Part shown: positions 888-19,149 of the stretch, piece after piece
Layout of the letters: every line of letters starts with the position of its first letter
Numbering within the stretch: the stretch's first letter is position 1
DNA from: a virus
Length of the DNA: 24,065 bases
Reading direction: 5' to 3' (one strand)
Virus record (IMG/VR): IMGVR_UViG_3300042691_027695
Span: 1 to 24,065 of that record
Translations under genes and position numbers: made by a program
Notes under the pieces: generated by a model
Databases searched by the model: none
The model's input: the letters and a program-made list of their open reading frames with translations, nothing else
What the model was told of the DNA's origin: nothing

Positions 888-1250
888 TTATTGTTTTGGT
901 GTTTGCTGCTCTCTCAACTGCTTACGAGTTGGTGCACCTGGTTGATATTGAACAGTACCATCTTGCATATTGATTCTACCTTGAGGATACTTCTCATCAA
1001 CACCATCTAATACTTCTCTTAATTCAGCATTTTTTGCTTTAAAATCATCATCGTTAACTTTAGTTAACTCATCAAGTCTTGCAAATTCTTCTGTCAATTC
1101 TTTTCTTCTAATGTAAATTTCTCCATATTGAGAAACACATTTGTTTACTTCTGCATTTAAATCTATAATTTTTTGAAAAATAGATTCATCAAGTTTTACT
1201 GTTTCAATCTCAATTTGAGCTTTTGTTGGAATTTTATCTAATTCTGCCAT
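888..1250 (-). CDS. Small coiled-coil protein, paralogue of the 94-aa protein at 5791-6075
   Basis: A 120-aa protein with no recognised family. Residues about 10-85 are charged and helical, with spacing that suggests a coiled coil. The C-terminal part reads EKYPQGRINMQDGTVQYQ and is followed by a Pro/Gln/Arg-rich tail. The 94-aa protein at 5791-6075 ends in a closely similar motif, EKQYPKGEVNLLDGTVTF, after its own helical region. The two are therefore probably paralogues, and they sit on either side of the glycosylation cassette. A short oligomerising structural protein or a fibre-associated chaperone would fit the size and composition, but neither role is shown. It has its own TACTTATA promoter box, and its leader is A-rich without a Shine-Dalgarno. 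Confidence 0.85.
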   Translation of the reverse strand: MAELDKIPTKAQIEIETVKLDESIFQKIIDLNAEVNKCVSQYGEIYIRRKELTEEFARLDELTKVNDDDFKAKNAELREVLDGVDEKYPQGRINMQDGTVQYQPGAPTRKQLREQQTPKQ

Positions 1251-1292: not shown

Positions 1293-2039
1293 TTATTTTT
1301 TGAAAATTGTAACCCCTTTTTCTTTTACAACCTCCCCAGCACAATAATTAGCCCAATCAATAGATTCTTCTATATTTTGAGAATCCAAGTATCTAGCCAC
1401 AAATCCAGCTACGAAAGTATCCCCAGCACCACTTACATCGGCATTATCAACTTTTTTAGTTTTTATTACTTTTCCTTTGTAAGAAGCCCCATTACCATCT
1501 AAAGTTGTTATTATTTTATCTTGCAACCATTTTTTCTCTAAAATAACTTCGTGATTGTTCTGAGCTTCAAATCGGTTCAATTTTATGAAAGTTATATCTC
1601 TACACCAATCTCCTAATTGTTTTTTAGTATCTAATATTACTAAGTTATGGAGTCTGGAAATTTCATATATATCTTCTTCAGTAAGAAACCCTTTACAATA
1701 ATCCGATATTACTACTGCATCATACTGAACCATTTCTGGTAATTCATATATGTTTATTCTATCAACTAAATCTTTTTCATCTACTCTAAGATACAATTCA
1801 TTAGTATCTTCATCAACATATCTAGTCTTTATTATATCACCACTATCGGAAAAAATATCCACATCAATACCCATTGCTATTAGATTGGCGGCTGTATTTT
1901 CTGCCATTCCCAAACCGAATACTTCTTTAGTTGGAATAAATACAGGTCCTTTTCCTTCTGGGGATTTTCGAGTAGATTTCCCATATATAAAAAGGTCTGT
2001 ACAACCTTCGCCAATTACTAATACTTTATTCTTATTCAT
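1293..2039 (-). CDS. PfkB-family sugar kinase, D-glycero-D-manno-heptose-7-phosphate kinase-like (HldE N-domain/RfaE1)
   Basis: A 248-aa ribokinase-fold kinase, expected to phosphorylate heptose 7-phosphate at C1 to give the 1,7-bisphosphate. The PfkB signature DVSGAGDTFVAG is at 201-212, with D207 the probable catalytic base. The N-terminal half follows the heptokinase pattern: an RKSPEGKGPV segment at 24-33 corresponds to the RISPEAPVPV of HldE. The substrate loop is at 42-52 and VVISDYCKG at 109-117. It is shorter than the roughly 320-residue HldE kinase domain, so some lid or dimer elements are reduced. Its start overlaps the end of the upstream nucleotidyltransferase by 8 bp, so the two are translationally coupled. 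Together they are the two halves of bacterial HldE, here as separate genes. Another sugar phosphate as substrate is possible. Confidence 0.85.
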   Translation of the reverse strand: MNKNKVLVIGEGCTDLFIYGKSTRKSPEGKGPVFIPTKEVFGLGMAENTAANLIAMGIDVDIFSDSGDIIKTRYVDEDTNELYLRVDEKDLVDRINIYELPEMVQYDAVVISDYCKGFLTEEDIYEISRLHNLVILDTKKQLGDWCRDITFIKLNRFEAQNNHEVILEKKWLQDKIITTLDGNGASYKGKVIKTKKVDNADVSGAGDTFVAGFVARYLDSQNIEESIDWANYCAGEVVKEKGVTIFKK

Positions 2040-2421
2040 CTAATAGTTTTGTTGTTGAAAGTTCATCTATTCTTTGAAAAAATTTTATCTCTTTTGCAAA
2101 CTCACCACCAATAATTGGTTTCCCAATATAATCCGAACCTATTACAAATATATCAGGATTTAGTGTTTTTAAATTATTCCTCAATTCATCTTCGGTATTA
2201 AAAACAATTACATCACCAACACCTCTTATTTGTCTTAAATTGTATTCCCTTTGCTGTTGGGTATGAAATGGTCTATCTTGTCCTTTAAGTTGTTTAACTC
2301 TTGCATCGGAATCAATTCCAATTACTAATTTGCCACCAAATGCAGCAGCATATTGAATCAACTTAAAATGTCCATAATGTAAAACATCAAAACACCCATT
2401 TATCCAAACTATTTTCCTCAT
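2032..2421 (-). CDS. ADP-heptose synthase-type nucleotidyltransferase (HldE C-domain/RfaE2-like)
   Basis: A 129-aa nucleotidyltransferase expected to join heptose 1-phosphate to ATP, giving ADP-D-glycero-D-manno-heptose. The motif GCFDVLHYGHF at 9-19 contains the HxGH signature (HYGH, 15-18). SDARVKQLKGQDRP at 38-51 is the signature block of the RfaE2 family, and the C-terminus retains the STTKLL ending typical of HldE. The whole short domain is present, so it looks intact. It overlaps the heptosyltransferase upstream by 4 bp and the kinase downstream by 8 bp. GmhA and GmhB, which make the heptose precursor and remove the C7 phosphate, are not in this window and would have to come from the host or elsewhere in the phage. 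A glycerol-3-phosphate cytidylyltransferase is a less likely alternative. Confidence 0.87.
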   Translation of the reverse strand: MRKIVWINGCFDVLHYGHFKLIQYAAAFGGKLVIGIDSDARVKQLKGQDRPFHTQQQREYNLRQIRGVGDVIVFNTEDELRNNLKTLNPDIFVIGSDYIGKPIIGGEFAKEIKFFQRIDELSTTKLLDE

Positions 2422-3566
2422 AGGAATTTTTCTAATTCTTTTATAACCATTTCAGAAGTTATTGTTTTAGTACATTCAAATTGTCTTTCCGTACCTTTGT
2501 GGTCTGGACACCAATTCCAATCCCCAGCATCCAATCTTATTCTATTAAAACATCCTTCACATTTTCCTGTTGGAGCGCCAATACGGATACAATCCTTCAT
2601 CTCTGCCCACTTATAAGAAAATCCGCTTATTAAAACAGTTGGTACATTTAATCCCCAACTCAACCAACTCAATCCACTACCAATGCCAATATAAGCTTTA
2701 GATTTTAAAAGTTCATCCATAACCAATTCAATAGGTCCATTTGGATGTTTGATAATTCCTTCTGGGTGCTTATTACCCATATAGTTATCATCTTCCTTCG
2801 ATATTAGTTTTACCACATATCCTCTATTTTTTAACCAGTCCACTACCTCTTGCCATCCATTTGGATTATTCCAATATTTTGATTGCGCAGTTCCGTGAAT
2901 ACCAATACAAACTTGTTTTAAGTTATGGTCAACTTTTACAGGTCTTTCTTTTATTAAAGGTTTAATTTCTTCAAATTCTAACCCCAATATATCAGAACAC
3001 ATTTTTTGCATTGTTTGATGTTTAGGGTCTGATGGATTTTTTAGTCCGTTGATGGAGCTATCTTCGTTATAAAATAACCCAACCGTATACATTGCATACA
3101 AATCCATAACATTTGTACCAGGTTTTACAAATTCGATATTTTTGTATTTTGTTTCAAACATATCATTCATAAATGTAGATACAATTACCTTACAACCATG
3201 TTGTTTTCTAAATGCCTCTGCATATGGTATCCATGCCAAAGAATCACCCAAAGCTTTAGAATCTAATGCAATATAAACTCTTTTATCAGCTGCATTATAT
3301 ATGTGTTCGTACCAAAGTGTACCATTTTCATAAATTGTAATTTTCCAATCTACAAAATATTCAATACTACATTTTGTCCACATATTATTTTTTATTTCAG
3401 TAGAATAATGCAATTTTCCTGTCTTGTTATCTCTGAACTCAATTTTGTATTGTGCTACTTTAGGTCCTTTAATTTCTACAAAGGCTCCACGTACAAAATG
3501 GGTAGTAACTTTATTTTGTACTTCAACAATATTTCTTTTATTTTTTACTAAGTTATCGTATATCAT
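2418..3566 (-). CDS. GT9 protein O-heptosyltransferase, TibC/BAHT-like
   Basis: A 382-aa family-9 GT-B glycosyltransferase. Its architecture matches the bacterial autotransporter heptosyltransferases (TibC, Aah), which move D,D-heptose from ADP-heptose onto Ser hydroxyls of repeat proteins. Residues about 20-95 form a beta-rich N-terminal domain typical of this subgroup. ALGDSLAWIPYAEAFRKQHG at 105-124 contains the LGDxLAW block with D108. GIHGTAQSKYWN at 222-233 is the nucleotide-sugar region, and GIGSGLSWLSWGL at 294-306 the C-terminal donor site. Four cysteines, C336-x2-C339-x13-C353-x11-C365, resemble the metal-binding finger of TibC. The start overlaps nothing and lies 1 bp after the upstream fusion gene; its stop overlaps the nucleotidyltransferase by 4 bp. 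Pairing with both HldE halves supports heptose as donor. The acceptor is unknown. Confidence 0.85.
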   Translation of the reverse strand: MIYDNLVKNKRNIVEVQNKVTTHFVRGAFVEIKGPKVAQYKIEFRDNKTGKLHYSTEIKNNMWTKCSIEYFVDWKITIYENGTLWYEHIYNAADKRVYIALDSKALGDSLAWIPYAEAFRKQHGCKVIVSTFMNDMFETKYKNIEFVKPGTNVMDLYAMYTVGLFYNEDSSINGLKNPSDPKHQTMQKMCSDILGLEFEEIKPLIKERPVKVDHNLKQVCIGIHGTAQSKYWNNPNGWQEVVDWLKNRGYVVKLISKEDDNYMGNKHPEGIIKHPNGPIELVMDELLKSKAYIGIGSGLSWLSWGLNVPTVLISGFSYKWAEMKDCIRIGAPTGKCEGCFNRIRLDAGDWNWCPDHKGTERQFECTKTITSEMVIKELEKFL

Positions 3567-3567
3567 T

Positions 3568-5736
3568 TTAGTTCCAAGTTTTTACCATCAAATCTAAAAG
3601 AGAGTAACCCTCCGCTTGCTTTGAATACATTTTGTTAGTTGTGTATCTATTTTTTGGATGATTTGCAAATACGTGATTATACCAAAGGTCACCAACATCC
3701 CAACCACAATCTACTAATCTTTCCATCCACCAAGCTTTTGTTCTATTAGGAATTAAATAAGCATGTGCAAGGTCTTGATTAAATGCAGTTTTACTAAACA
3801 TTTCATCAATCTTATTTTTTTCTCTTGATGGGTTATCAGCCAATCCAATAAAATAAACATCATCTCTTTCAGAAATAAAACAAGCTTTATGAACCATTTC
3901 TACAAACTCTTCTAATCCGGTGTATATAAATGCATCAGCTTCAAACACCAATGTATAATCATAATTTGTTTCATCCATCGTTTCTAAAGCACCTCTATGT
4001 GCTAAATAACACCCATAATGTCTACCAGTCATCCATCCCAAACCAGCACCAGGCCACAATTCACCAGGTTTATTATCTTTACTAATATGTTCGGGCCTAC
4101 GGCAGTTTTCGGCTGGCGCTAATCCTTCGTATGGTTTATTTACTATTGGTTGATAATCTATACCGTATTTTGCTAATTGCTTAATTGATTGTATAGATAC
4201 TCTTTCTCTCATATCATCAGGTCTAGTCAAAAGATGTTTAATTTGAATTCTTGGTTTCTTTCGTACCCAAGACAAATCCACCCTTTGAATTTGTCCATAA
4301 AAATAATCATTTACAGCTTTAGTTACTGAAGGAAATACATTATAATCATCTCCAGTTATATACCCACCCGGTTTTACTTTGTTGTACCAATTTTTTATAT
4401 CATTGATTGTGTTATCATAAGAATGGTCACCATCTAACATAATAAAATCAATACTATCATTTGAAAACTGATTTGAAGCGTTTTCGGAAGTATCTTTTAT
4501 AATATCAAATTTATCATAATTGTTTGATATTACCGCATTATCTACAAATTCGTAAAATGCATCTCCACCAAATGATTCAACTCTTTTTTGATAATAAGAT
4601 TCATCTAAGTTACCTTTAAAAGTATCAATTGTAGTAAATTGAATTTTCTTTTTTGATTCTTTTATTTTATCAACTAAATAATTTGTAGATTTACCAAGCC
4701 AAGAACCAACCTCCACAAAGTTTGCTTTGAATGGTGCTTTTTCAACAGCCTCATCGTAAAGCTTTTGATAAGAAAACCAACCAGGTAGTTCGTTAAATTC
4801 AGGCTTTAATATTTCTAATAATTTTCTTTTTGTAAGATTTAAATCATCATCAATATAAGTTACCAATGAATTATTATCATATGTATCTAAGAATGTATGA
4901 AGCTTTCTAAATAATGATGGAAGTTTCCAACTAAGTGCTTCTTTAACTGATAGCGGGTTTAATTCTAATGTTGATGAAAAATAAAAAAGGTCACACGCTT
5001 CATAAAATAAATTAGTATCGGTTCGTTCACCCCATATAACACAATTTTCAGGTTTATCTTTCATTAAAGGTAACCAATAGTGTTCAAAGTTCATAGCCTG
5101 ATTACCTACAAAGTGAAATTTTATTTTATATTTTTCTAACTGCCTAGCTACCGAAAATATTTCAGCTTGATTTTTACCAGGTGAAAACAAACCAACATTT
5201 AAAACATGCTTCCATGTTGGGTCTAAACCTAATTCTTTTTGAGCCTTTTTTCTATTCGGTTTGAAATCTTCAATTGGATATTCCCATAGCATGGTTTCAA
5301 CGCCAGTTTCCTCAAATCTCCTTCTGCTCCATTCAGATACTAAAACATATCTGTCTGGATGATATACTATATCAGATGGATTTGTAAAAGAACCATGGGT
5401 AGTTGCTACAATAAAATAATTTCTATCTTTTGTAAAAATTTTATCTAAAATATTTGTTGATAAATCAAATTGAGGTATTTCTTGAAAATGGATAATATCG
5501 GGCTCAAACTTTTGTATGATATTTAAAATTTCTGTCTTATCTTCACCCAAAGTGTGTAGTATTGCTAGTGATTTTATTCTATTCTTTTGAACAACAAAAG
5601 CATCACCACCACTATTGTTTATTTCAACAACTTGAATATCAAATTCATTGATAAAATGTTCTAACTGCTTAAAAGTGTATTGAGGTTGTCCTCCGGTTGA
5701 AAGATGGGGACATATGTAGAGTAACTTTTTACGCAT
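3568..5736 (-). CDS. Three-domain fusion: GT4-like glycosyltransferase, class I methyltransferase, GT25-like glycosyltransferase
   Basis: A 722-aa protein with three enzymatic regions. Residues 1-310 are a GT-B glycosyltransferase with a GG loop at 15-16 and an E-x7-E motif at E258/E266, as in GT4. Residues about 320-480 are a SAM-dependent methyltransferase of the Methyltransf_24 type: motif I VEVGSWLGKS at 341-350, an acidic residue in TIDTF at 369-373, and LDGDHSYD at 434-441. Residues about 495-722 resemble GT25 (LPS and collagen glycosyltransferases), with GRHYGCYLAH at 571-580 and VFEADAF at 597-603 in the place of the family's LEDDA. It is the first gene of the cassette, with a host-type promoter 17 bp upstream of ATG. 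It could extend or cap a glycan begun by the heptosyltransferase. Donors and order of action are not visible. Confidence 0.85.
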   Translation of the reverse strand: MRKKLLYICPHLSTGGQPQYTFKQLEHFINEFDIQVVEINNSGGDAFVVQKNRIKSLAILHTLGEDKTEILNIIQKFEPDIIHFQEIPQFDLSTNILDKIFTKDRNYFIVATTHGSFTNPSDIVYHPDRYVLVSEWSRRRFEETGVETMLWEYPIEDFKPNRKKAQKELGLDPTWKHVLNVGLFSPGKNQAEIFSVARQLEKYKIKFHFVGNQAMNFEHYWLPLMKDKPENCVIWGERTDTNLFYEACDLFYFSSTLELNPLSVKEALSWKLPSLFRKLHTFLDTYDNNSLVTYIDDDLNLTKRKLLEILKPEFNELPGWFSYQKLYDEAVEKAPFKANFVEVGSWLGKSTNYLVDKIKESKKKIQFTTIDTFKGNLDESYYQKRVESFGGDAFYEFVDNAVISNNYDKFDIIKDTSENASNQFSNDSIDFIMLDGDHSYDNTINDIKNWYNKVKPGGYITGDDYNVFPSVTKAVNDYFYGQIQRVDLSWVRKKPRIQIKHLLTRPDDMRERVSIQSIKQLAKYGIDYQPIVNKPYEGLAPAENCRRPEHISKDNKPGELWPGAGLGWMTGRHYGCYLAHRGALETMDETNYDYTLVFEADAFIYTGLEEFVEMVHKACFISERDDVYFIGLADNPSREKNKIDEMFSKTAFNQDLAHAYLIPNRTKAWWMERLVDCGWDVGDLWYNHVFANHPKNRYTTNKMYSKQAEGYSLLDLMVKTWN

Positions 5737-5790: not shown

Positions 5791-6075
5791 TTATTGGTTG
5801 TTGTCAAAGGTAACAGTACCATCTAAAAGATTTACTTCTCCCTTTGGGTATTGTTTTTCTAACTCACTTAAAGATGTGTTTAAAATATCATAGGTTTTAT
5901 CTACTTCATTTTCATATAAAGTAGTATCATCCTCAGCTTTTTTAAGTTCTTTTTTCATAGAACTTAATTTCATATGATGTTCACCTAAATTATAAACAGC
6001 ATTTGTGTAATTATTTTTATAAGAAATTAGGTTATCAACTATTTCTTTTGGTAATTGTTTTGTTTCTATCGCCAT
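5791..6075 (-). CDS. Small coiled-coil protein, paralogue of the 120-aa protein at 888-1250
   Basis: A 94-aa protein of unknown function. Residues about 8-75 are charged and helical, with many Leu/Met residues at coiled-coil spacing. The C-terminus carries YPKGEVNLLDGTVTF, shared with the 120-aa protein at 888-1250 (YPQGRINMQDGTVQY). It is the first gene after the giant fibre and is separated from it by 37 bp holding a promoter box. A role as accessory structural protein or chaperone for the fibre is plausible but unproven. Upstream of the start is AAAGGAAAATT, one of the few leaders here that resembles a Shine-Dalgarno sequence. Confidence 0.85.
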   Translation of the reverse strand: MAIETKQLPKEIVDNLISYKNNYTNAVYNLGEHHMKLSSMKKELKKAEDDTTLYENEVDKTYDILNTSLSELEKQYPKGEVNLLDGTVTFDNNQ

Positions 6076-6112: not shown

Positions 6113-6457
6113 TTACAAACCCAAAGATGAACTCATTTGAGATTCCATTTGTTTAACTTTACTAATCAGAGCATTTATACCACCCCAAACAGCCCATAGG
6201 ATATTTCTGTTATCCAAATCTTCTGGTTGTTGTCCTATTACTTCTCCATTACTACCAGTTACATCGGAGTATCCAATAAGGTCAGTTAATCCAGCATCAT
6301 ACAAATCCTCTGCTATTAGTGATAGTTTTTTAGGGTATTCGCTATTAGGGTCAGCTTCAATGTATCTAAATTCCTTAACTCTTACTTTTTCAATTTTATC
6401 CAATAAATCGGGATAAGAATTCCAATCTTCTATTTCTTTCTTATACCTTCTAGATGA
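6113..6457 (-). other. Peptidase S74 intramolecular chaperone domain of the fibre
   Basis: Residues 2563-2676 of the fibre. The start, SSRRYKKEI, aligns with the S-D-x-R-L-K-x-I opening of the family, where cleavage follows the first Ser. Here the usual Asp after the cleaved Ser is Ser2564. The following FRYIEAD and LSLIAEDLYDAGL segments fit the family, and the last about 20 residues suit a terminal coiled coil. Confidence 0.8.
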
Positions 6458-9400
6458 TGGACCATCTCTAAACATTCTCCACTCATATGTACCAGCACTA
6501 ATACTCATTCTTACATCTCTATAAGTTTGACCACCAACACTACCATCTGTCAATGGCGATACAAAATAAATAGCTGAACTATTTCCAACTCTTATAGCAC
6601 CATCAGATGCAAATGTACCAGCACCACCTAAAGTAACTCTATTACCATTAAAAGCAACAGTACCAGCACCACTCACAACATTTATAGCTGTAAACGCTCC
6701 AGAAGTACCAATATTTTGAATAGTAAGAATTGTATCACTATCACCACTATCTTTTCTTAATCTAAGTGTATCTCCCGTAAACCCACCCTTATATGAATTA
6801 TAGTTATCCGTAGGATATGATGATATTGTAGCATCATGTCTAAGATATGCCGTACTTGTGGTTACCGTTTGGAATCCACCCCCATTGGCAATTGTACCAG
6901 CAGATACTAATTGATAACTAACTGATGTTGATGTTCCAATATTAGCTTGAGCTGTTGCTCTTGATGTTGCAAAATATGGCGAACCACCAGTATCAAGAGA
7001 TTCTAATGTATGTGTTGTTTTTAAACCAATTCTATAAGAAGTTGATGCTGCTAAAGATGGTGAAACCACAAATGTAAGCGGTTTTGGTAGATAATCTATA
7101 TCATATACAGCCGTATAAATAACGTTGTGTGAAATAATATTATTAGAAACATAGTTTAAATATTTTGGTACAGAGAACGAATACACTTCATTACCACCAT
7201 CTATTACTTCAATTGAATCTACAACTTTTTGCTCTATTATATCACCAACCTTAACATTAATTTTAGATTTACCAGGAACTAATTCTAGCACACTAAGTTC
7301 ATCAACTTCACCATCTACCCAAAATGTGTGAGTGTCAGAAACTTCTAATTCATAAGAACCAATTTTAACTTTATAAGTTTCAGATACTTCTCTATATGAA
7401 ACATTTGAAATTTTAGCAGAAACAAATTGTTTCAATTCATTATCCCAAGCTAATATCTCATCCCACTTTTCAATATCTTTTGCTAATTTAGTAGAACCAT
7501 CAGACATCAGTATTTCAGTATCACCAATAACTGACCTAAAGTTATCTTCTTCCATACTACCATACGCATATGCTCCGGCACTATTTCCAAAATATGCATT
7601 ATTAACATCAGGATTACCTCCAGATAATGGAGCAACAACTATTGTATATGTTACGGATGAATATGCAAAACCTTCCGCACTTGCAAAAGTTGGTAATGTT
7701 GATGGGTTATATATGTATTTAATTAAATATTTACCAGCCGCACCTGTTGTAAAATTTGATTGGCACCAATAATATCTTTCTTCTGCAAAAACATCATCAC
7801 TAGCATTTATCGTTGTATCTGAAAAGAATGCTGAGCTTGAAAACGAACTATTACCAGAAGTTGCCGCAGAAATTGAAGGTAGCGATGTATCTGTGTTGGC
7901 TTGGAATCTTAGTGTATCATTACTATCAAATACAGTTATTGATTCATCCGCCGCATCTAATAATATTGAGTCATTTTCAGATTGGATAGTATTTCCAATA
8001 ATTTTCCAAGAACCAATAACACCATCTAGCGCTTCTACACTTCCTCTTAATTCCAAACCAGTACCAGACCATCTTAAATATCTATAAGCGGCTGATGCGG
8101 TCGGTTCGTTATTTACTAAAGAGAGTCTGTAATTATTTGCATCGTTTCCCAAAAATACACCAGGTCTACCATAACCTTGAGTACCTTGTCCAATTGAAAT
8201 GTATGGTTGTTGAGTTCCACCAACGATAGCAATATTTGCAGTACTACCTGCTGTGTTAGTTCCCACATTTAATACACTTTGAACATACGATTGTTCGGAT
8301 ATAATAGTTCCTGTTGCTATTGAACTAAATTCAGCTCCAAATGAAGTCCAATTCGATGATGATGGCGATGGAACTCCCCAAGAAGAACCCGATTGATTGT
8401 TAAGTGCAGCATTTGATGCTAACCAATAGTTACTACCACCAGCCGCTTGTTGAACAACATCAGTTCTAGTTGATGATTTAAAATAAACACTACCGGTTGA
8501 AAATGGTCCTCTAAATACAACGCCAGGTCCTACACTACCAGCAGCACCAGATGTACCAGATGTACCATTTGCACCAGGCGCACCATTTACACCAGATGTT
8601 CCAGATGCAGCATATACCATCCAATATATACTTTGGTCTGGATATCCAGTGTTACCTGTTCCGTTTGTTGATGTATGTGCTACAGTACAAATATAACTTG
8701 CGCCGTTGAATGTTACTGTATCATCTACATAATATTGTGTAGCAGGAGAACCTACCCAAGCACCTCTAAATTCTCCTTCAGGTACACCTGGTGTAGTTTG
8801 TCTAATTGCACCAATGATTGTTAATGTATCACCATCCCAAAGAAGTCCAGCAGTACTTGCCCCACCAGGTTGAGTTTTAATTGAAAATCTACCCGATGTA
8901 GTTGCACCACCTTCATAAACTCCTAAAAATATTCCACCTCTATCATATCCAATTACACCATTTGATGTTTGGTCACCACTAGCACCAACAGTACCATTTT
9001 GTCCTATTGAAATATATGGGTCAGTTCTACCACCGGCTATTACAACATTTGCAAATGCTGAACCTGGATTGTTACCTACGTTAATTGTATTTTTTACAAA
9101 TGATTCTTCAAATATTGCTATTTTGGCAGATACGAAGAAATCTTGTTCTCCTAAATATTGCCAATAAGATGTATCAACATATGATGGTGAAGTTGGTGAT
9201 GTTGGTAATTGAGGACCTACACCAGCTGGCCCAGAACCACTTAACGCAGCCCAATAATGTGTTGCTCCACTACTACCAGATGGGTCTGGGAATATGATTG
9301 CATCTCTTCTATAATTTGTTGTTTCTACCGAACCAATGTAATCTGTAACTTCATTCCAAAGTCCTCTCATTACTATACCTGGCCCAGTATTTCCTTCATA

Positions 9401-12400
9401 TTGAATTGATAACGATTGAGTTTTATATAAATTTTCTCTACCTTCACAATCTATTCTATAAACAATTTGAGCAACCGCTATACTTTCAGGACTACCCCAA
9501 GAATCTAATTGAGCAATGGAAGCTGGATTTCCAGTTAAATAACTTCCACTAACTAAAGCCCCAGCTAAATCTAAATTAGCAGAAACGTTGTGAATTGAAA
9601 CGTTGTACTGATTCTTATATCCAGTATTTCCAAACGCATCTGTTTGTGGATTTGTAAACGATGAACTATTTACTAATTCAGTATCACCTCTAAATCCTCT
9701 AATTGTATTTCCAGTATTTTGTAATTCTATTTCACCACTTACCTTATAAACTACTGATGAGTTTTCGTTTGATAGTTGACCCGAATACGGCCCATATGGA
9801 TTAAACTGAATTGATAAGGATTGGGTTTTGTATAAAATTTGTCTACCACCTTCAATATTAATTTTGTAAACAATTTCAGCGTTTGTATTATTACCCCATT
9901 GATTCCAAGAAACCACATCACCAATTGTAGCAATTCCACCAACAGTTGGAACTATACTTCCACTAACCAATCCACCTGGTAAAGTTATATAATTTGGTTT
10001 AGATTGAATCGTAACTTGATACTCACCTAATGAACCAATAGGGTCACCATTTAAATCTAAAGTTGGTGCACTAAATGAGTTAACGTGAGTTAGTTGTTCA
10101 GAACCTTTTATAGTTACTATTTGTGTGTTACTACCAGTTGTATTTAATTCCCAAACATCACCAACTAAAGATGCTACTTCATTTGTTACATTTACAGCAT
10201 ATGCTTCAGCACCCGCTTTTATACCACTAATTGTAATTTGAGCTTGTGCCCTAACTGTTGCCGATGCTGAATTACTACCATCTCTCACATCAACTCTCCA
10301 AGTTGCTATTTGACCGGGAGATGTAGCATCACCTGAAGAAATAGTGAATGTATTTGTTGATTGTATTGATGAATATTGAACACTATCTTTATAGAATTGA
10401 TAGAATGCAGAACCAGTCATATTAAAAGCCGTAGCTGTTAATGTGATATCTCCTTCCGGTGTCACTACTACACCATCTCCATCAAAATTTACTGTCTCCG
10501 ATGTTGATGTTAATGTTACACTTCTAGCAGCTGGCTGTGCTACATTTTTTGTGAATAATTGAGTTCTTTCATATAGAGAAGATGTATATTGATGCCCAGC
10601 TCCTAATGCATATGGATAAACTCTAATTCCATAAACCGCACTTGCTGAAACGTGTGGGAAGTCAAATCTTTGAAAATTAGCAACTGCTGTATCGGTTGAT
10701 GAAGTTAATAATCCTTGTAATGATGCAGTTTGAATATTACTACCACTAATATATTGTACTCTCCAACTACCAGGAGATGTTGAAGATGTTGTAAATGTTA
10801 AATAATCACTTCCTTCTCTTACTCTAATTGTTGTTCTTGCATTAGCGTAATCAGAAACATAACCAACTTCATCAGCTGAAATGTTAGCTGATAATGGTGA
10901 TATTACTATTTCAATTGGCGGTGCACCATCTAATACTTTTGTAATATTTTGGAATACACTAGCTGTATAAATTGATGATGTGTAATATGGTTGTATTTCT
11001 AATGGTAACTCAATACTAGCACTTAAATCAGTCATATTAGATGAAGCGCTTAGTATTAACGATTGTGTATATAAATTATCAAAATAAACGTTACCCGCTG
11101 TAATATTATTTCCAATTATAGAACCAGTTGCTATATGGAATGTTCCAGGTTCTCTACTACTTGTAAAAATAAGATAACGAGAACCTTGCTTTAATTTAAC
11201 ATCGGTAATTGTTGGTGAGTAATCTGTTACAAAACCTCTTGAATTTGCTTGTAAAGTTACCGATGATGGTACAACTTCAAACACAATTGATTCATCGCCA
11301 GGTTTACCCTCAGGAACAATAGTAAATAGTTTATCAACACTTACAGATGCAGATGTAAATTCTTCCGTATAAGTAAAATTAACTAATAGTTGTTTACTTT
11401 GTGTTGTAGGTAATCCAATAAACTGATTATATGGTGTGGATGGAATAACAAACCCCTTTTCATCATAAGCAATAACACTAATTTCTGGGTTTACACTATT
11501 TGTTACATAATACATCCAATACTCTGGAACAAAGTCAGAATTAATTGACATTGATGGAAATACTTCAATAGATGCCGATATAGGTCCTTCTGTTGTACCT
11601 CTTTTATAAAAAGATGCGGTAGCTGATGATGATATTGGTGTGAATGTATTTGTAAGTCTTGGGTTTATTGTAAATGTATCCGCATCAAACAATACAACAC
11701 CAGCATCAATACCATCTAATAAATCTGTTAGTGTTAATGTAGTTAGAATTGATGCTGATAAATTTGTAGAACCAGATGGTATTAGATATAAAGTTCGTTG
11801 CCCATCAATTGATTCCCTTTTAAAGACAGCATTATAATTTAACTCACCACTACCCGTTACTCCAGCTGATAATCCTTTTACAAAATTTTTATTACTAGCA
11901 TCTTGCAGTGTGATATAAGTAGAACCACTTTGTACGTGAAGCTGAACAGCTGAACGTCCGGCTGGCAATCCACTTCTTAAATTAATTTCGTTTACACCAT
12001 CAATTCTAATTGACTGAACTTCTAAAGATGATGATGGGTTAGAGTTTCTAATTACAGTTCCGTTGTAAGGTCTAATTTCGTAATTAACACCACCCTTACC
12101 ATCAATTACTCTTGTAATGATTACTGAATCTTCAACGCCTTCACATTCGGCTGTATATTCTATGAATTGTACAACTATATCTTCTAATTGAGGGTCTCTT
12201 GAGCCTGTAAAATTTTGTACTGTGAGATATGGTGAATCGGTGTTTAAATCATTTAATAAACCAGGAAATTGATACCAATTGTAACCAGGTGTAACAGTAT
12301 ACGAATATTGTGAAGATGATAATTCGTTATTGAAAAAATCAAATGAACGAGAAGTAAATGTTACCGAACCAGTTAGGTAATTTTTTATTACATCAAAAGT

Positions 12401-14143
12401 TATTACAGTTGGTGGTAATGGATTTCCATTTCCAGAACCAGAATCAAATTGAAAGTATAATGAAGATGGTATTAGTTCTAAACTTTTTTGAATTGGATTT
12501 AAGTTACCACCATCAAATGTTTTACTTGCTTCAACAATTACAGGTATGTAGTTGTTGTTAATATCGTAAAATTGAAATAAGAAATTAAATGTTTCTGCTG
12601 GTAATGTTCTTGGAATTGGTTGGATAAATGTTATCTCATCCGGTGAGTATGATGTTTCTTGAGATGCTCTTAAACTTACATCAGAAACATACCAACCATT
12701 TCCCTTTACTTCAAAGTATAATTTAGCATTATTAATTTCATCTGCTTTAAAATTACTACTTAATTGACTTTTTTGAAGTACAGAATTATCAGAAGTAATT
12801 GTTACAATATCTTTTCTTACACCGATTGTTGATGTTACATTATTATATGTGGTTTGTCTTGAACCACTTAAATAAACTTTAACGTAATTATCAGATGATA
12901 TATTTTGAGCTAATCTGATATTGAATCCTAAAGTGTATTCGGTATCAGTTGTTAATGATAAAGATTTTGATGTAAAAAATTGATTAGTACCATTACTATT
13001 TAATTTAATTGAACTATATAAAAAGTCTTGATTAAATTCAGTTGTAATATTATTAGATGATGTTAACCAATAATTTGGATACAATACCTCATCAAAAGTA
13101 CCATAGTTTTCTAAATTTTTAACAGTGGATTCTAAATCCGTAAGAATCTCATTAGATTCTAATTGAATCTCTTGTATAAATTGATAGTCTGCTAAATCTG
13201 ATTGGGATTTTCTAAATATTTTTACCCTTGCAACATCTCCAACAAATGTAGTTAAATCTCTTAAATTTATTTTAGCAAATGAACCAGTTAATGCTGTCTT
13301 TAAATTATCAATTCCCTCAACATAATTAAATGTTATTGAATATGGTTGATTTGATATATCTTTTACTATTCCATTTTCAGTATATGGAGTTGTTATCGTA
13401 ATATCTTTATTTGATATGACATCATCAACTACCGATGAAAACCCTAAGTTGGTTAGATTGATTGTACTACCAACTATTGAACCAGTCCAAGCAGTAGCAT
13501 TGTTGTTTATTTGTAATAGATAGTTAGTTGGTAATGTAAACCCAGCCAATTTTTCGCCGGAAGCAGGTGTTTGTGCAAATCCATCAACAGTCCCCGTTTG
13601 TGTTACTGCAGTTACAATATTTGAAAAAATAGGTTTTACTATTTCCTCAATTACTACTTTTGGTCTTTTATAAAATCTAACCTTATCTTCGTTAGATAGT
13701 AATTTATTAATTGTAAAAGTTCTTTCCCATTTACAATTATAAACACCAGCCCAATTTTCTGGTATATCTCTTACAATTCCATTTTCATCAATATAGGTTT
13801 TTAATTCACCTAATACAGTAATTTTACCTAAACCAATTGGTGTGTTTTCATAAACATAAACAGCTACTATTTTGGAATTACCTTCATAATACTCAGGAAT
13901 ACCATTACCGGGCTCATAATAAACAGGATTACCTTCTACATCTAATATTTGTAATTTAATTTCGGTAGTTTCTTTTAAATGCTCACTACCCTCAATTAAG
14001 AATCCGTTTTTACCGCCGGTGAATGTATCTTTGAATTCTGTGATTCTAAAGTATGTAGAATTGGGCGCATCATCATTTACAAATGTTACATATGATGATA
14101 ATGGTTGTGTTAAAACCTCAGCGTATTTCTTTATTATTGCCAT
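6113..14143 (-). CDS. Giant modular tail fibre with Hint domain and C-terminal S74 chaperone
   Basis: A 2676-aa, very Ser/Thr-rich virion protein, the largest gene in the window, most likely a host-contacting fibre. Residues 1-180 look like a baseplate- or tail-attachment domain. The middle consists of repeated beta-sandwich-like modules: related pairs at about 955-1010 and 1080-1130, and about 1330-1448 and 1455-1580. Another pair at about 1585-1781 and 1871-2053 shares a PYISIGQ core. Between the last pair lies a chitin-binding-like CBM5/12 module (about 1787-1846), then a short G-x-y collagen-like stretch. Residues 2204-2340 are an intein-like Hint domain. Residues 2563-2676 are a peptidase S74 chaperone starting at SSRRYKKEI, expected to trimerise the fibre and then cleave itself off. 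It has its own promoter box. It is the likely acceptor for the adjacent heptosyltransferase, by inference only. Confidence 0.88.
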   Translation of the reverse strand: MAIIKKYAEVLTQPLSSYVTFVNDDAPNSTYFRITEFKDTFTGGKNGFLIEGSEHLKETTEIKLQILDVEGNPVYYEPGNGIPEYYEGNSKIVAVYVYENTPIGLGKITVLGELKTYIDENGIVRDIPENWAGVYNCKWERTFTINKLLSNEDKVRFYKRPKVVIEEIVKPIFSNIVTAVTQTGTVDGFAQTPASGEKLAGFTLPTNYLLQINNNATAWTGSIVGSTINLTNLGFSSVVDDVISNKDITITTPYTENGIVKDISNQPYSITFNYVEGIDNLKTALTGSFAKINLRDLTTFVGDVARVKIFRKSQSDLADYQFIQEIQLESNEILTDLESTVKNLENYGTFDEVLYPNYWLTSSNNITTEFNQDFLYSSIKLNSNGTNQFFTSKSLSLTTDTEYTLGFNIRLAQNISSDNYVKVYLSGSRQTTYNNVTSTIGVRKDIVTITSDNSVLQKSQLSSNFKADEINNAKLYFEVKGNGWYVSDVSLRASQETSYSPDEITFIQPIPRTLPAETFNFLFQFYDINNNYIPVIVEASKTFDGGNLNPIQKSLELIPSSLYFQFDSGSGNGNPLPPTVITFDVIKNYLTGSVTFTSRSFDFFNNELSSSQYSYTVTPGYNWYQFPGLLNDLNTDSPYLTVQNFTGSRDPQLEDIVVQFIEYTAECEGVEDSVIITRVIDGKGGVNYEIRPYNGTVIRNSNPSSSLEVQSIRIDGVNEINLRSGLPAGRSAVQLHVQSGSTYITLQDASNKNFVKGLSAGVTGSGELNYNAVFKRESIDGQRTLYLIPSGSTNLSASILTTLTLTDLLDGIDAGVVLFDADTFTINPRLTNTFTPISSSATASFYKRGTTEGPISASIEVFPSMSINSDFVPEYWMYYVTNSVNPEISVIAYDEKGFVIPSTPYNQFIGLPTTQSKQLLVNFTYTEEFTSASVSVDKLFTIVPEGKPGDESIVFEVVPSSVTLQANSRGFVTDYSPTITDVKLKQGSRYLIFTSSREPGTFHIATGSIIGNNITAGNVYFDNLYTQSLILSASSNMTDLSASIELPLEIQPYYTSSIYTASVFQNITKVLDGAPPIEIVISPLSANISADEVGYVSDYANARTTIRVREGSDYLTFTTSSTSPGSWRVQYISGSNIQTASLQGLLTSSTDTAVANFQRFDFPHVSASAVYGIRVYPYALGAGHQYTSSLYERTQLFTKNVAQPAARSVTLTSTSETVNFDGDGVVVTPEGDITLTATAFNMTGSAFYQFYKDSVQYSSIQSTNTFTISSGDATSPGQIATWRVDVRDGSNSASATVRAQAQITISGIKAGAEAYAVNVTNEVASLVGDVWELNTTGSNTQIVTIKGSEQLTHVNSFSAPTLDLNGDPIGSLGEYQVTIQSKPNYITLPGGLVSGSIVPTVGGIATIGDVVSWNQWGNNTNAEIVYKINIEGGRQILYKTQSLSIQFNPYGPYSGQLSNENSSVVYKVSGEIELQNTGNTIRGFRGDTELVNSSSFTNPQTDAFGNTGYKNQYNVSIHNVSANLDLAGALVSGSYLTGNPASIAQLDSWGSPESIAVAQIVYRIDCEGRENLYKTQSLSIQYEGNTGPGIVMRGLWNEVTDYIGSVETTNYRRDAIIFPDPSGSSGATHYWAALSGSGPAGVGPQLPTSPTSPSYVDTSYWQYLGEQDFFVSAKIAIFEESFVKNTINVGNNPGSAFANVVIAGGRTDPYISIGQNGTVGASGDQTSNGVIGYDRGGIFLGVYEGGATTSGRFSIKTQPGGASTAGLLWDGDTLTIIGAIRQTTPGVPEGEFRGAWVGSPATQYYVDDTVTFNGASYICTVAHTSTNGTGNTGYPDQSIYWMVYAASGTSGVNGAPGANGTSGTSGAAGSVGPGVVFRGPFSTGSVYFKSSTRTDVVQQAAGGSNYWLASNAALNNQSGSSWGVPSPSSSNWTSFGAEFSSIATGTIISEQSYVQSVLNVGTNTAGSTANIAIVGGTQQPYISIGQGTQGYGRPGVFLGNDANNYRLSLVNNEPTASAAYRYLRWSGTGLELRGSVEALDGVIGSWKIIGNTIQSENDSILLDAADESITVFDSNDTLRFQANTDTSLPSISAATSGNSSFSSSAFFSDTTINASDDVFAEERYYWCQSNFTTGAAGKYLIKYIYNPSTLPTFASAEGFAYSSVTYTIVVAPLSGGNPDVNNAYFGNSAGAYAYGSMEEDNFRSVIGDTEILMSDGSTKLAKDIEKWDEILAWDNELKQFVSAKISNVSYREVSETYKVKIGSYELEVSDTHTFWVDGEVDELSVLELVPGKSKINVKVGDIIEQKVVDSIEVIDGGNEVYSFSVPKYLNYVSNNIISHNVIYTAVYDIDYLPKPLTFVVSPSLAASTSYRIGLKTTHTLESLDTGGSPYFATSRATAQANIGTSTSVSYQLVSAGTIANGGGFQTVTTSTAYLRHDATISSYPTDNYNSYKGGFTGDTLRLRKDSGDSDTILTIQNIGTSGAFTAINVVSGAGTVAFNGNRVTLGGAGTFASDGAIRVGNSSAIYFVSPLTDGSVGGQTYRDVRMSISAGTYEWRMFRDGPSSRRYKKEIEDWNSYPDLLDKIEKVRVKEFRYIEADPNSEYPKKLSLIAEDLYDAGLTDLIGYSDVTGSNGEVIGQQPEDLDNRNILWAVWGGINALISKVKQMESQMSSSLGL
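7124..7534 (-). other. Minimal intein-like (Hint/BIL) domain inside the fibre
   Basis: Residues 2204-2340 of the fibre, 137 aa, the size of an intein without endonuclease. Block A is SVIGDTEILMSDG, with Ser instead of Cys at position 1. The block B-like segment is LEVSDTHTFWV, and block F/G is VYSFSVPKYLNYV followed by IISHN with the His-Asn end. The next residue is Val, not Cys/Ser/Thr. These features fit a bacterial intein-like domain that cleaves or splices non-canonically, rather than a classical intein. Confidence 0.8.
8605..8785 (-). other. CBM5/12-like carbohydrate-binding module in the fibre
   Basis: About residues 1787-1846 of the fibre. The pattern RGAW, YYVDDTVTFNGASYIC, AHTS and PDQSIYWMVYA follows the small chitin/carbohydrate-binding module (W, Y..GD.V...G..Y.C...H, P....YW). 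It could contact host glycans. A Gly-rich collagen-like linker follows directly. Confidence 0.55.
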
Positions 14144-14245: not shown

Positions 14246-14416
14246 ATGAAAAAATATGCTATGGTTCAAATTGATGCAGAAGTCCATCAATTACTTAAAG
14301 AATTTTGTAAGGAGAAGGGATATAAAATAAGTGGTTTGGTAGAGACCCTAATTAAAGATAAAGTATCTTCTATTAAAAAGCCCCTACCAAAAAATGTTCT
14401 AACCACTAAAAATTAA
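14246..14416 (+). CDS. Small ribbon-helix-helix DNA-binding protein
   Basis: A 56-aa protein, the only gene on the plus strand. Residues 5-40 (MVQIDAEVHQLLKEF, then KGYKISGLVETLI) follow the ribbon-helix-helix pattern of Arc/CopG: a short beta strand, then two helices with the G-Y-K-I-S turn. Such proteins bind DNA as dimers and usually act as repressors. The C-terminal 16 residues are basic and probably flexible. It diverges from the fibre gene across a 102-bp region holding two opposing promoter boxes, and its last 11 bp overlap the end of the Mre11-Rad50 gene tail to tail. It may control the fibre promoter or serve as an early/late switch. An antitoxin role is less likely because no toxin partner is next to it. 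Confidence 0.75.
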   Translation: MKKYAMVQIDAEVHQLLKEFCKEKGYKISGLVETLIKDKVSSIKKPLPKNVLTTKN

Positions 14417-17400
14417 TTTTAGAAAATCCGTTTTCTTTTTTAATTTCAATCAACCCATCTACAACATCTCTCATTTGGTCTAAGTGAGATATAATCCAAA
14501 TAAAATCAAATTGAGTTTTAAGATATTGCATTAGAAGGAATAAAGATGATAAGTTATCGGAATCTAATGTACCAAATCCTTCATCAATTACTAAGAAGTT
14601 AGGTCTGGGTAGATTACATATATTAATCAAAGCTACTCGTATTGCCAATCCACTAACGAATTTCTCCATACCACTACATAACTCCAATGGCCATTCTTGG
14701 TCTTCATATACAATCTTAGCGTTAATACTTTTACCATCCACATCCATAACAACGCCAAAATCAACAATCTGACCTAAGATATTGTTTACTTCGTTTTCAA
14801 TAACAGGCATAGCCTTTGAAATCAGTTCATATGGAACACCATCTCTTTTTACCGCATCTAAATAATAGGTGTATAGTTGGTTTTTGTTTTCCAAATTCTT
14901 AACATCATCCATTTTTTGTTTTATACTAACAATGAAGGATTCAATAGAACCAATCTTTCCGGTTATATCCAAAAGTTCTTTATTGTATGTAGATAAACTC
15001 TTTTCAATACCTTTCTTTTGAGAATCCAATTCTAAAATACTTTGTTCTATTTTTTGGTTTTCTGAAATTATGGCTTCGTTATCATAATACTTTTGAATAT
15101 CAGATTCAACTCCACTTAATTGTGTTTTAAACAATTCTATTTGATGTTCAAGTGATTTAAGTTCGGCTTGAGCCTTTTCTTTAATAACTTTACCTTTCTG
15201 ATATTTGTTTTTTAATTCACCCAATTTCTCCCATACATCCTCAACCTCAGCAAGTGGTTCACTGGACTTGATAAGTGATTGGTGTGATGAATTGAGCTCC
15301 TCTAATTGCTTCTCTTGCTCTTTAACAGTCTCTTTAGTTTGAATTGCATCCTTAACAAATACGTTGTTCATACAAAACTGACAATTTGGGTCATACTCAT
15401 GTTGTTCCAAGTGTTTGAGTTTGTCTAAATTACCTTCGTATTGAGTTTCCAACTTATCTATTTGTTGTTGAATCTCCACCAATTTACCCTTAGCCAAATC
15501 CCATTGTTTTTTAGCTTCATCAATAGGTAATCCATTAACCTCATTGTGTTGATTAATTGATTGAGATACTTCTCCTAATAAAGTTTCATATTCTTCAATC
15601 TTAGATATCTTTTCGCCTATTTGAGTTTCAACTCCATTTATCTTAGTAGCCAAATGGGATTTTGAATCCTCTAATTTTTTTATATTTAGGTTTTTATCAA
15701 TTGGAGTTATTGATTTATTTAGTTCAGATATTTGGGTTTGAATGGAATCTTTTTGTTTATTGAACTCTTTCATCTCATTATTAAGTTCACCAAGTCGAAC
15801 CTTTTTATCCTTCAAGTCGGTTTCTTTTTCCGCCAATTCTGTCGTAAAATCCGTCCTCTTAAAATTTCTGATAAGTGCTGCCACTTCTTTAATCTCCTCA
15901 CCAGCCGTTGCATACAACTTATCAAATACGGTCAATCCCATAAATTGTGCCAACAAATCCTTTCTTTCCGATTGGGATTTATCAATAAAGAGAGCATTGT
16001 TACCTTGTAGGGATAGAGCAGTTAGGACAAAATCTTCGTATCTACCAACGTATTGCTCAATAATGGTATTCGTATCCCTTCGTTCCGTTCCATTTAGTGA
16101 TTCCGTTTCACCACCTACTTCTTTCCAAAACTCTACATCTACCTTTACGTTCTTTCCTTTGTTAATGGTTTTAGCTTCTCTACGAATAAAGTAATCCACA
16201 CCATCTATTTGAAAGTGTAATTTACAAAAGAAGGTATCCTTTCTATTGTTCATTATATGGGATGCTTTATAAGCCCTACTACATTTATCGAACATACAAA
16301 AGGATATAGCATCGAATAGGGATGATTTACCTGCTGTATTTGGTGCGAATAATCCCATCAGTCCGTTTGCTTTAGTGAAGTCAATCTTATTACTTTCACC
16401 ATAGGAGAACATATTGCTGAATTCAAACTTTATTGGCTTCCAACTTATGTTTCGAATTACATCATCATTTTGAATCTTTCCAGCTATATCTTTGTGAATA
16501 TCTTCAATTCCTTCCAAGTCCTCATCCGATATAAATGGCATCATTCTTTGTAGATATTCTTTTATAAGAGTGTTTTGATACTCCACATCGGTTATATCTT
16601 CAAAATCAAGTTTAGATATTCTATTACCAGTTTTCAATTTGTTCATTGAATCGGTTCTAATAATAGTGAAATCTTCAATACCATATTTCTTTTTGATTTC
16701 CGTTACCATACGCTTTGTATCCGCAGTATCGGTGTTGGATAATCTTACTCTTAATCTAGCATACTTTGGAATATCGGTTACATCAGGAACCACACCACCA
16801 TCAATATCTAACGTATAATATCCGTATTCATTTGGGATATCAACTTCTTCATAGGTCATTGTATCCAAGTCCCAAACTAAGAAACCATGCTTATCTAAAC
16901 TCTCTCCAAAGTTTTGTTGTACTAATGAACCAGCATAAACAATTTTACATCCCTTCGGAGATATCATTTCTTGTCTTTTATGGATATCACCTAATAGAGC
17001 TAAATCATACCCATCAAACATATCCGTTGTGAAATGTCTACTACTAACTACATAACCAACATCAGTTTGAGATGAATCAACCGGTCCATGAAATAAAGCA
17101 ATCTTTTTGTTACCAAATAATTTATCTGCAGTTGGCCAATTATCTCTTTTATCAAAAATACTAAATACTGCAAAATCAACGTTACCAATAGCATAAACTT
17201 GAGTATCTTTCAGATAATGAAAATTATCCAAATTGAGAGCCTCTACAATTGGAGTTAGTACATCCAATCTATCGGAGTTGTTCATATTACAATCGTGATT
17301 ACCTGCAATAAGAATTGTTGGGCAATGTTTTGTACATTCAGTAAATAACCAACTAATCTCTTTCACCAATTCAGGTGACATTTCCAATTTAGCATGAGCT

Positions 17401-17549
17401 ATATCTCCTGCCAAATAAATAATTGAATCTTCAGTTCCCCTAATACGAATCTCTTCAAACATCCTTTCAAATACCAAACGATATTCTTTATGTCTTTTCA
17501 AATTTCGGATATGAATATCTGCTATATGGTATATTCTCTTCAAACTCAT
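14406..17549 (-). CDS. Single-chain Mre11-Rad50 (SbcD-SbcC) recombination nuclease, T4 gp47+gp46 fusion
   Basis: A 1047-aa fusion of two proteins that are normally separate. Residues 1-330 are the Mre11/SbcD metallophosphoesterase: D11-x-H13, GD at 48-49, GNHD at 83-86, HGPVD at 154-158 and GDIH at 187-190. Residues about 372-1047 are Rad50/SbcC: Walker A at 399-410 (GLFAPNTAGKSS), a long coiled coil at about 550-890 with the zinc hook C723-QF-C726, and the ABC signature LELCSGMEKF at 955-964. Walker B FLVIDEG at 985-991 and an SHLD H-loop at 1021-1024 complete it. All key residues are present, so it should be an active ATP-dependent end-processing nuclease for recombination-dependent replication. 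It overlaps the primase stop by 4 bp (ATGA), so the two are co-translated. Confidence 0.93.
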   Translation of the reverse strand: MSLKRIYHIADIHIRNLKRHKEYRLVFERMFEEIRIRGTEDSIIYLAGDIAHAKLEMSPELVKEISWLFTECTKHCPTILIAGNHDCNMNNSDRLDVLTPIVEALNLDNFHYLKDTQVYAIGNVDFAVFSIFDKRDNWPTADKLFGNKKIALFHGPVDSSQTDVGYVVSSRHFTTDMFDGYDLALLGDIHKRQEMISPKGCKIVYAGSLVQQNFGESLDKHGFLVWDLDTMTYEEVDIPNEYGYYTLDIDGGVVPDVTDIPKYARLRVRLSNTDTADTKRMVTEIKKKYGIEDFTIIRTDSMNKLKTGNRISKLDFEDITDVEYQNTLIKEYLQRMMPFISDEDLEGIEDIHKDIAGKIQNDDVIRNISWKPIKFEFSNMFSYGESNKIDFTKANGLMGLFAPNTAGKSSLFDAISFCMFDKCSRAYKASHIMNNRKDTFFCKLHFQIDGVDYFIRREAKTINKGKNVKVDVEFWKEVGGETESLNGTERRDTNTIIEQYVGRYEDFVLTALSLQGNNALFIDKSQSERKDLLAQFMGLTVFDKLYATAGEEIKEVAALIRNFKRTDFTTELAEKETDLKDKKVRLGELNNEMKEFNKQKDSIQTQISELNKSITPIDKNLNIKKLEDSKSHLATKINGVETQIGEKISKIEEYETLLGEVSQSINQHNEVNGLPIDEAKKQWDLAKGKLVEIQQQIDKLETQYEGNLDKLKHLEQHEYDPNCQFCMNNVFVKDAIQTKETVKEQEKQLEELNSSHQSLIKSSEPLAEVEDVWEKLGELKNKYQKGKVIKEKAQAELKSLEHQIELFKTQLSGVESDIQKYYDNEAIISENQKIEQSILELDSQKKGIEKSLSTYNKELLDITGKIGSIESFIVSIKQKMDDVKNLENKNQLYTYYLDAVKRDGVPYELISKAMPVIENEVNNILGQIVDFGVVMDVDGKSINAKIVYEDQEWPLELCSGMEKFVSGLAIRVALINICNLPRPNFLVIDEGFGTLDSDNLSSLFLLMQYLKTQFDFIWIISHLDQMRDVVDGLIEIKKENGFSKINF

Positions 17550-18741: not shown

Positions 18742-19149
18742 TTATTGTAAATCCTTACGGAAAAACTTTCCCATAAGATTTTCGTTTATAGAATATGGGT
18801 TTGCAAGTACATCCAACTTAAATTGCCAATATACTTCCCAATATGTGAGTGATTTTTTAGAAAAACAGAATTGGATGATTTCTCTTTCAAATTCACCAGC
18901 TCTACCTTCTTTTACTTCATTCTTAATCCATTCATTAGATGAATAGTATTTCTCCCAATCTGATGCTTTACGAACTACTCTTTTACGAACTTTTCCCTTT
19001 AGGGGTTTCAAACGGCGAGTTGAAATAAGTGATTTTTTACCAATGTAGAATTTACCAGTTGGGGTATGTATGATTTTATAGACAAATCCAACCGCACCCT
19101 CTGGGGTGTTTTCTTCTGTAACCTCAATTCCATTAAATTTCCAACTCAT
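18742..19149 (-). CDS. SegE-like GIY-YIG endonuclease
   Basis: A 135-aa stand-alone nuclease of the GIY-YIG fold, like the SegE-type free-standing homing endonucleases of T4-like phages. The two-strand core GFVYKIIHTPTGKFYIGKKS starts at residue 21. It is followed by a basic segment rich in Arg/Lys (about 43-60) and a DWEKYYSSNEW block. A downstream helix, SLTYWEVYWQF, holds the Glu expected to bind the metal. No separate DNA-binding domain follows, so target choice probably rests on the basic insertion. It begins 6 bp after the 63-aa gene and 8 bp before the 66-aa gene. It may cut related phage genomes near this locus and spread itself. A role in DNA processing is also possible. Confidence 0.82.
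   Translation of the reverse strand: MSWKFNGIEVTEENTPEGAVGFVYKIIHTPTGKFYIGKKSLISTRRLKPLKGKVRKRVVRKASDWEKYYSSNEWIKNEVKEGRAGEFEREIIQFCFSKKSLTYWEVYWQFKLDVLANPYSINENLMGKFFRKDLQ

Follow-up and report, generated by a model that had tools for sequence, protein, structure and literature searches.

The 24,065-nt window analysed here (the whole IMG/VR record IMGVR_UViG_3300042691_027695, a 24-kb fragment) belongs to a large freshwater phage and contains a four-gene sugar cassette that is common to many of its relatives. The best explanation, which we hold with slightly better than even confidence, is that the cassette O-glycosylates virion proteins and acts on the phage's own fibres. The four genes are as follows.

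1293–2039, minus strand: KIN, HldE-kinase-like protein (PfkB) in a short, 248-aa form; predicted D-glycero-D-manno-heptose 7-phosphate 1-kinase; best family TIGR02198.
2032–2421, minus strand: NT, HldE adenylyltransferase-like protein of 129 aa; predicted heptose 1-phosphate nucleotidyltransferase; best family TIGR02199.
2418–3566, minus strand: viral BAHT-type (GT9) predicted protein O-heptosyltransferase, 382 aa; assigned by TIGR04414, TibC homology and predicted fold.
3568–5736, minus strand: GT4-methyltransferase-GT25 fusion, 722 aa; assigned by PF00534, PF13578, PF01755 (weak) and fold.

KIN and NT overlap by 8 bp, NT and BAHT overlap by 4 bp, and BAHT and the fusion are separated by 1 bp, exactly the spacing given in the original prediction, an earlier reading of this DNA from its letters alone. 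Compared with the nearest relative, L002, at 42–64% synonymous difference, the ratio of nonsynonymous to synonymous substitution (dN/dS) is 0.04 for BAHT, 0.06 for the fusion, 0.17 for NT, and 0.14 for KIN, indicating that the genes are maintained as proteins. The four genes are real and under purifying selection, and the cassette is conserved.

The family-level identity of the heptosyltransferase is solid. The protein scores 269.7 bits against TIGR04414, the autotransporter O-heptosyltransferase family (curated NCBI cut-off 200), and just 23.6 bits against the model of lipopolysaccharide (LPS) heptosyltransferase I. Its predicted model (mean predicted local distance difference test score, pLDDT, 90) superimposes on TibC with a Z score of 41.3 and a root-mean-square deviation of 2.1 over 355 residues (31% identity), and residues 17–382 recover the TibC-type fold including the N-terminal barrel. 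The Z score is ~18.8 with LPS heptosyltransferases, including WaaC. The original prediction had proposed a TibC/BAHT-like GT9 enzyme and named a best match to a lipid or LPS heptosyltransferase as a reason to abandon it; the match found is to the protein heptosyltransferases. The equivalent of the TibC catalytic residue Asp-110, Asp108 in the window protein, is D in 76/76 non-gapped viral-type sequences; the equivalents of Thr-226, Lys-230, and Trp-305, which contact the phosphate and sugar, are T, K, and W in 78/78; and each of the four iron-finger cysteines is kept in 78/78. In the BAHT tree, all viral-type BAHTs lie on one side of a fully supported branch, and TibC and 18 bacterial sequences lie on the other. 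By their sequences, the viral BAHTs thus form a clade apart from the bacterial ones.

Like the bacterial BAHTs TibC and AAH, the viral enzyme has a GT9 core, an N-terminal beta-barrel, the iron-finger Cys4, the catalytic Asp, and the Lys-230 and Trp-305 equivalents, and its gene is near a candidate acceptor. Unlike them, it carries a replacement at the Arg-286 position and Gly or Ser at the stereo-position where TibC has Pro; viral-type BAHTs are often fused to GT4 or methyltransferase domains, and they lie beside phage fibres or collagen-like proteins, where the bacterial enzymes have autotransporters. No AIDA-type or strand-loop-strand autotransporter repeat was matched, at E up to 1, in the five structural proteins of the window, which is a fragment. 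As separate observations, the BAHT reading frame of G072 has seven in-frame TGA codons and may come from a recoded phage, and the six near-identical contigs G066, G089, G096, G100, G102, and G112 have a second copy of BAHT, decayed or recoded, that contains one TAG and one TAA.

The cassette is flanked by a tail fibre gene on the same strand, upstream of the four genes, and by two small genes.

6113–14143, minus strand: tail fibre of 2676 aa with an S74 chaperone-like C-terminus, a candidate acceptor; phrog_5073 (tail fibre), PF13884.
8522–8602, minus strand: collagen-like 27-aa stretch GTSGVNGAPGANGTSGTSGAAGSVGPG in the fibre, a candidate acceptor segment.
5791–6075, minus strand: h94, small protein between fibre and cassette; recognized by synteny, resembles h120.
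888–1250, minus strand: h120, small protein at the other end of the cassette; recognized by synteny, resembles h94.

The similar h120 and h94 bracket the cassette as if it had been placed between duplicated genes. Scanning for relatives of BAHT yielded 141 loci in viruses, of which 80 were retained, and a scan with the flanking gene CTL0 gave further loci. The fusion, BAHT, and the flanking gene are present together in 86 loci, and the order fibre, h94, GT4-methyltransferase-GT25, BAHT, [NT, KIN], h120, CTL0 holds in nearly all contigs as far as they extend, a huge fibre being upstream of the cassette in the related loci that extend to it. The expected co-occurrence with a large fibre in relatives is therefore observed. 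The set of four genes varies: NT and KIN are both present in 42 of the 86 loci, NT only in 15, and neither in 29. In loci without either gene the pair is cleanly missing, with ~50 bp between BAHT and h120. Mapped on the BAHT tree, the NT+KIN state requires a minimum of 8 changes under parsimony, and starred branches force at least 6 of them. The HldE-like pair is optional in the cassette lineage, and phages without KIN and NT must obtain the complete donor from the host. A distant, GT4-fused BAHT (L065, 48% identical) also adjoins an HldE-like pair, which is a second pairing of the donor genes with a BAHT-type transferase.

KIN gives 94 bits with TIGR02198 (model cut-off 345), which is its best family and is matched by 10/10 relatives tested, with the best E-values of any family. 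The PfkB catalytic motif GAGD (residues 204–207) and residues R24, P27, and E28 of the R-x-x-PE-type motif are invariant across 10 phages. NT gives 102 bits with TIGR02199 (cut-off 181.5), its best family, and 63 bits with glycerol-3-phosphate cytidylyltransferase; TIGR02199 is matched by 15/15 relatives tested (best E 1.6e-33), again with the best E-values of any family. In a search of 31 records, the kinase is found solely where it adjoins BAHT. The pair thus resembles the bifunctional ADP-heptose synthase HldE (RfaE) in its two predicted activities and in the best family for both halves. Unlike HldE, it is split in two proteins, the kinase is shortened (by ~65 aa relative to the HldE model), the scores are under the equivalog cut-offs, and GmhA and GmhB are not found. 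The proposed split HldE therefore stands as a family assignment and falls short at equivalog level.

GmhA (SIS_2, PF13580) was not found in 42 records and GmhB was not found in 18, so the precursor must be host-supplied, in line with the proposal that these functions come from elsewhere. No HldD-grade epimerase was found in the BAHT-positive records searched, in which HldD-like matches are far below the cut-off; in the cyanophages S-SM2 and P-SSM2 such matches reach 191–197 bits. The result fits the use of ADP-D,D-heptose, for the making of which HldD is unnecessary. The donor of TibC is ADP-D,D-heptose (PMC4358343), and the gene set therefore makes chemical sense provided that D,D-heptose phosphate is available from the host. 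Judged from the genes, ADP-heptose is the likely donor of the viral BAHT.

The fusion matches glycosyltransferase group 1 (Glycos_transf_1, PF00534) and Methyltransf_24 (PF13578). Its C-terminal 215 aa match GT25 (PF01755) weakly, with an E-value of 0.0017 and 18.7 bits versus the Pfam gathering score of 24. The predicted model of this part (pLDDT 85) has the collagen galactosyltransferase COLGALT1 as its top solved match (Z 14.8, 182 residues), and Mimivirus R655 is likewise high among its fold matches. The GT25 assignment, weak by Pfam, is thus supported by the predicted fold, and the three-part fusion first proposed is retained. Its predicted role is to extend or decorate the glycan.

The adjacent fibre had been described as Ser/Thr-rich. 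It is indeed next to the cassette but only mildly so enriched: Ser and Thr make up 21% of its residues, compared with about 10–15% in ordinary neighbours and 30–42% in many proteins with Gly-Ser/Thr repeats. In most lineages with a fused BAHT, proteins with Gly-Ser/Thr-Ser/Thr repeats are encoded no more than ~5 kb from it, and one is near BAHT in the 735-kb phage LR756501. The Microcystis phage Mel-JY01, which has been isolated, also has both BAHT and Gly-Ser/Thr repeat proteins. On the bacterial contig L085, from a Polaromonas metagenome-assembled genome, a repeat protein is 8 bp from a BAHT of the viral type; its chromosomal-looking neighbours are a reading of the open reading frames, and the contig may be misbinned. 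The repeat is present in 19/23 BAHT-positive records versus 0/3 BAHT-negative records of the same set, and in 0/20 BAHT-negative relatives and cyanophages. Among neutral contigs that were selected by ThyX and span 30 kb or more, the repeat is found in 0/49 and BAHT in 0/49, in searches that had no internal positive control and whose profile and pattern gave matches in the repeat-chosen contigs and in the BAHT-positive records, respectively. Among contigs chosen solely for the repeat, BAHT is found in 18/50, including 7/9 of those over 100 kb. Fisher P values for the association are 1e-6 (2e-5 with six near-copies collapsed) and 8e-14, which overstate the evidence because the phages are related and the BAHT-negative CTL0 relatives are mostly shorter. 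ThyX was chosen as neutral marker since the Mel-JY01 terminase gave mostly short contigs and a random 15-mer gave many short and prophage-sized contigs; both were dropped.

In the 271-kb relative G013, which has full synteny, two proteins, 3927 and 3994 aa in length, hold 390 and 735 aa of the repeats; G002 likewise has repeats in two very long proteins. The idea that every fibre of the cassette lineage contains collagen-like repeats was rejected, as the 10 kb around the cassette have short repeats or none, and the repeats are present elsewhere in the genome. The acceptor is probably the collagen-like repeats, which in the window lineage would belong in part, or for the most part, to other giant fibres. 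The original proposal that the phage glycosylates the adjacent fibre is therefore upheld in the conserved linkage to a huge fibre, and the likelier acceptor has moved to repeats that are mostly in other giant fibres. As a separate observation, a 2854-aa phage protein (L073, 5418–13982) has more than 2200 residues of GTNGTSG-type repeats. Residues 2205–2340 of the window fibre (~7124–7530, minus strand) resemble a HINT/intein domain (weak PF14890, TIGR01445, and TIGR01443) that starts with Val-Ile-Gly-Asp-Thr, where inteins carry Cys; crude matches to this motif are also found in the L010, L038, and L167 fibres.

We infer the donor, acceptor residues, glycan structure, and biological role as follows. 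Host-derived D-glycero-D-manno-heptose 7-phosphate would be phosphorylated at C1 by KIN, and the 7-phosphate would be removed by a host (GmhB-like) enzyme. NT would then activate the heptose 1-phosphate, most likely to ADP-D,D-heptose, and the viral BAHT would attach the heptose to serines and threonines in fibre proteins of the phage itself; the likeliest sites are the collagen-like Gly-Ser/Thr-Ser/Thr repeats. GT4-methyltransferase-GT25 would extend and methylate the glycan, which may protect the fibre, tune receptor use on the host, or hide the fibre from defences.

Several observations weigh against fibre O-heptosylation. TibC Arg-286 contacts adenine, and replacing it by Ala abolishes the activity wholly or for the most part (PMC4358343). 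The position is R in 17/18 bacterial sequences and V, L, I, or A in 78/78 viral-type sequences, with Val282 in the window protein. We therefore name the viral enzymes a sister subfamily, a non-canonical BAHT, and consider ADP-heptose a likely donor; the original statement on ADP-D,D-heptose thus keeps its dispensable HldD and loses its certainty about the donor. In addition, KIN and NT are below the equivalog cut-offs, and the negative searches for GmhA and GmhB count in the same direction. The Arg-286 replacement and the scores below the cut-offs raise the alternative that the viral clade has switched to a non-heptose or non-adenylyl donor, with KIN and NT making that sugar nucleotide; the shortened KIN, the NT score with glycerol-3-phosphate cytidylyltransferase, and the absence of KIN from half of the cassettes would agree with it. 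However, the remaining donor-contact residues are unchanged, the best E-values of KIN and NT are with HldE models, and the same HldE-like genes are paired with two separate BAHT lineages. We consider a donor switch unlikely.

On the acceptor side, the collagen-like repeat in the window fibre is one 27-aa stretch only, the long repeats of the window lineage are tens of kb from the cassette (G013), several cassette-lineage contigs, which are partial, have no repeat, and the association counts are non-independent, the contigs being related and possibly sharing a host group. The collagen-like or fibre acceptor is thus a candidate proposed from sequence. BAHT might instead modify nothing but the adjacent 2676-aa fibre; in the window lineage this fibre is the constant neighbour, and repeats within 10 kb are short or missing. 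The repeat association would then be a by-product of a shared host group or phage type among related sampled phages. Yet the association spans deep BAHT lineages, repeat-first sampling, and a bacterial contig, and neutral contigs have neither repeat nor BAHT, so that we regard this alternative, too, as improbable. Modification of the host surface, in which the cassette alters LPS/O-antigen or another surface glycan and blocks superinfection, is how rfaE and glycosyltransferase genes of aquatic phages are commonly read; for those of pelagimyophages the published interpretation is O-chain modification (PMC7029224), and the cyanophage clusters have been named LPS genes (PMC3037559). HldE genes classically feed LPS, and in cyanophages KIN and NT are accompanied by an HldD-like epimerase, with no match to BAHT. 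Against this, the transferase belongs by score and by Z value to the protein, not the lipid, heptosyltransferases, and the cassette is linked to fibres and repeat proteins; we judge it quite unlikely here. Functionless filler has been raised for the cyanophage LPS clusters, described as of unknown function and either functional or 'stuffer DNA' (PMC3037559), and KIN/NT are gained and lost. It is very improbable for the cassette in view of purifying selection, the 86 loci that keep BAHT with the fusion, and the intact catalytic residues.

O-heptosylation of fibres would be a variant of BAHT-type glycosylation, not new chemistry. No publication linking BAHT to phages was found in the literature searched, whose coverage is limited, so that absence is not proof; the original remark that no phage fibre O-heptosylation has been described agrees with this, although ADP-heptose genes are not new to phages: cyanophage annotations have listed them as LPS genes for a long time, and SynMITS9220M01 also has annotated heptose genes (PMC7378029). 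The cyanophage 'LPS' clusters (P-SSM2, S-SM2; T4-GC 304, 305, 307, and 308) contain homologues of KIN and NT, which in P-SSM2 lie close to tail-fibre genes. Unlike the window, they have an HldD-like epimerase and a HAD-like protein, and no BAHT or Gly-Ser/Thr repeat was found in them. As a side observation, cyanophage genes annotated 'phosphoheptose isomerase' are short (L084 10716–11060; L083 17978–18289 and 19619–19948), and the one in P-SSM2 carries, close to its start, a DIDGTI motif like that of HAD phosphatases and does not match the SIS domain (PF13580). These genes are likely misnamed and perhaps GmhB-like.

Giant viruses offer a parallel in their glycosylated collagen-like proteins (Mimivirus R655 and others): there, too, a large virus has its own glycosyltransferases, collagen-like proteins, and a GT25-type fold. 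Animal and giant-virus collagen glycosylation uses hydroxylysine. Unlike it, the modification proposed here is Ser/Thr O-heptose, in bacteriophages. It is possible, though short of probable, that many large aquatic phages heptose-coat giant Gly-Ser/Thr-Ser/Thr collagen-like fibres via the viral BAHT subfamily and that some of them produce the activated heptose on their own. Such coating would be the equivalent, in phages, of the glycosylated collagen fibrils known from giant viruses and would give a function to phage 'LPS' genes. If true, heptose and glycosyltransferase genes long annotated as LPS genes in large aquatic phages would have a concrete function, protein O-heptosylation would extend from bacterial adhesins to virions, the glycosylated virion proteins would be those with Gly-Ser/Thr-Ser/Thr repeats, and the viral enzymes would be defined as a subfamily whose nucleotide pocket is altered.

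The window primase and one structural protein are nearest to the Flavobacterium phages immuto, the Microcystis phage Mel-JY01, and LR756508. Shine-Dalgarno-like starts are few, and a Bacteroidota host is plausible. A cyanophage origin was rejected; large BAHT-positive relatives lack psbA. A SegE-type GIY-YIG homing-endonuclease-like gene (18742–19149) lies between the structural genes and the primase/SbcCD genes, and a single 1047-aa protein (14406–17549) combines an SbcD-like nuclease with an SbcC-like ATPase.

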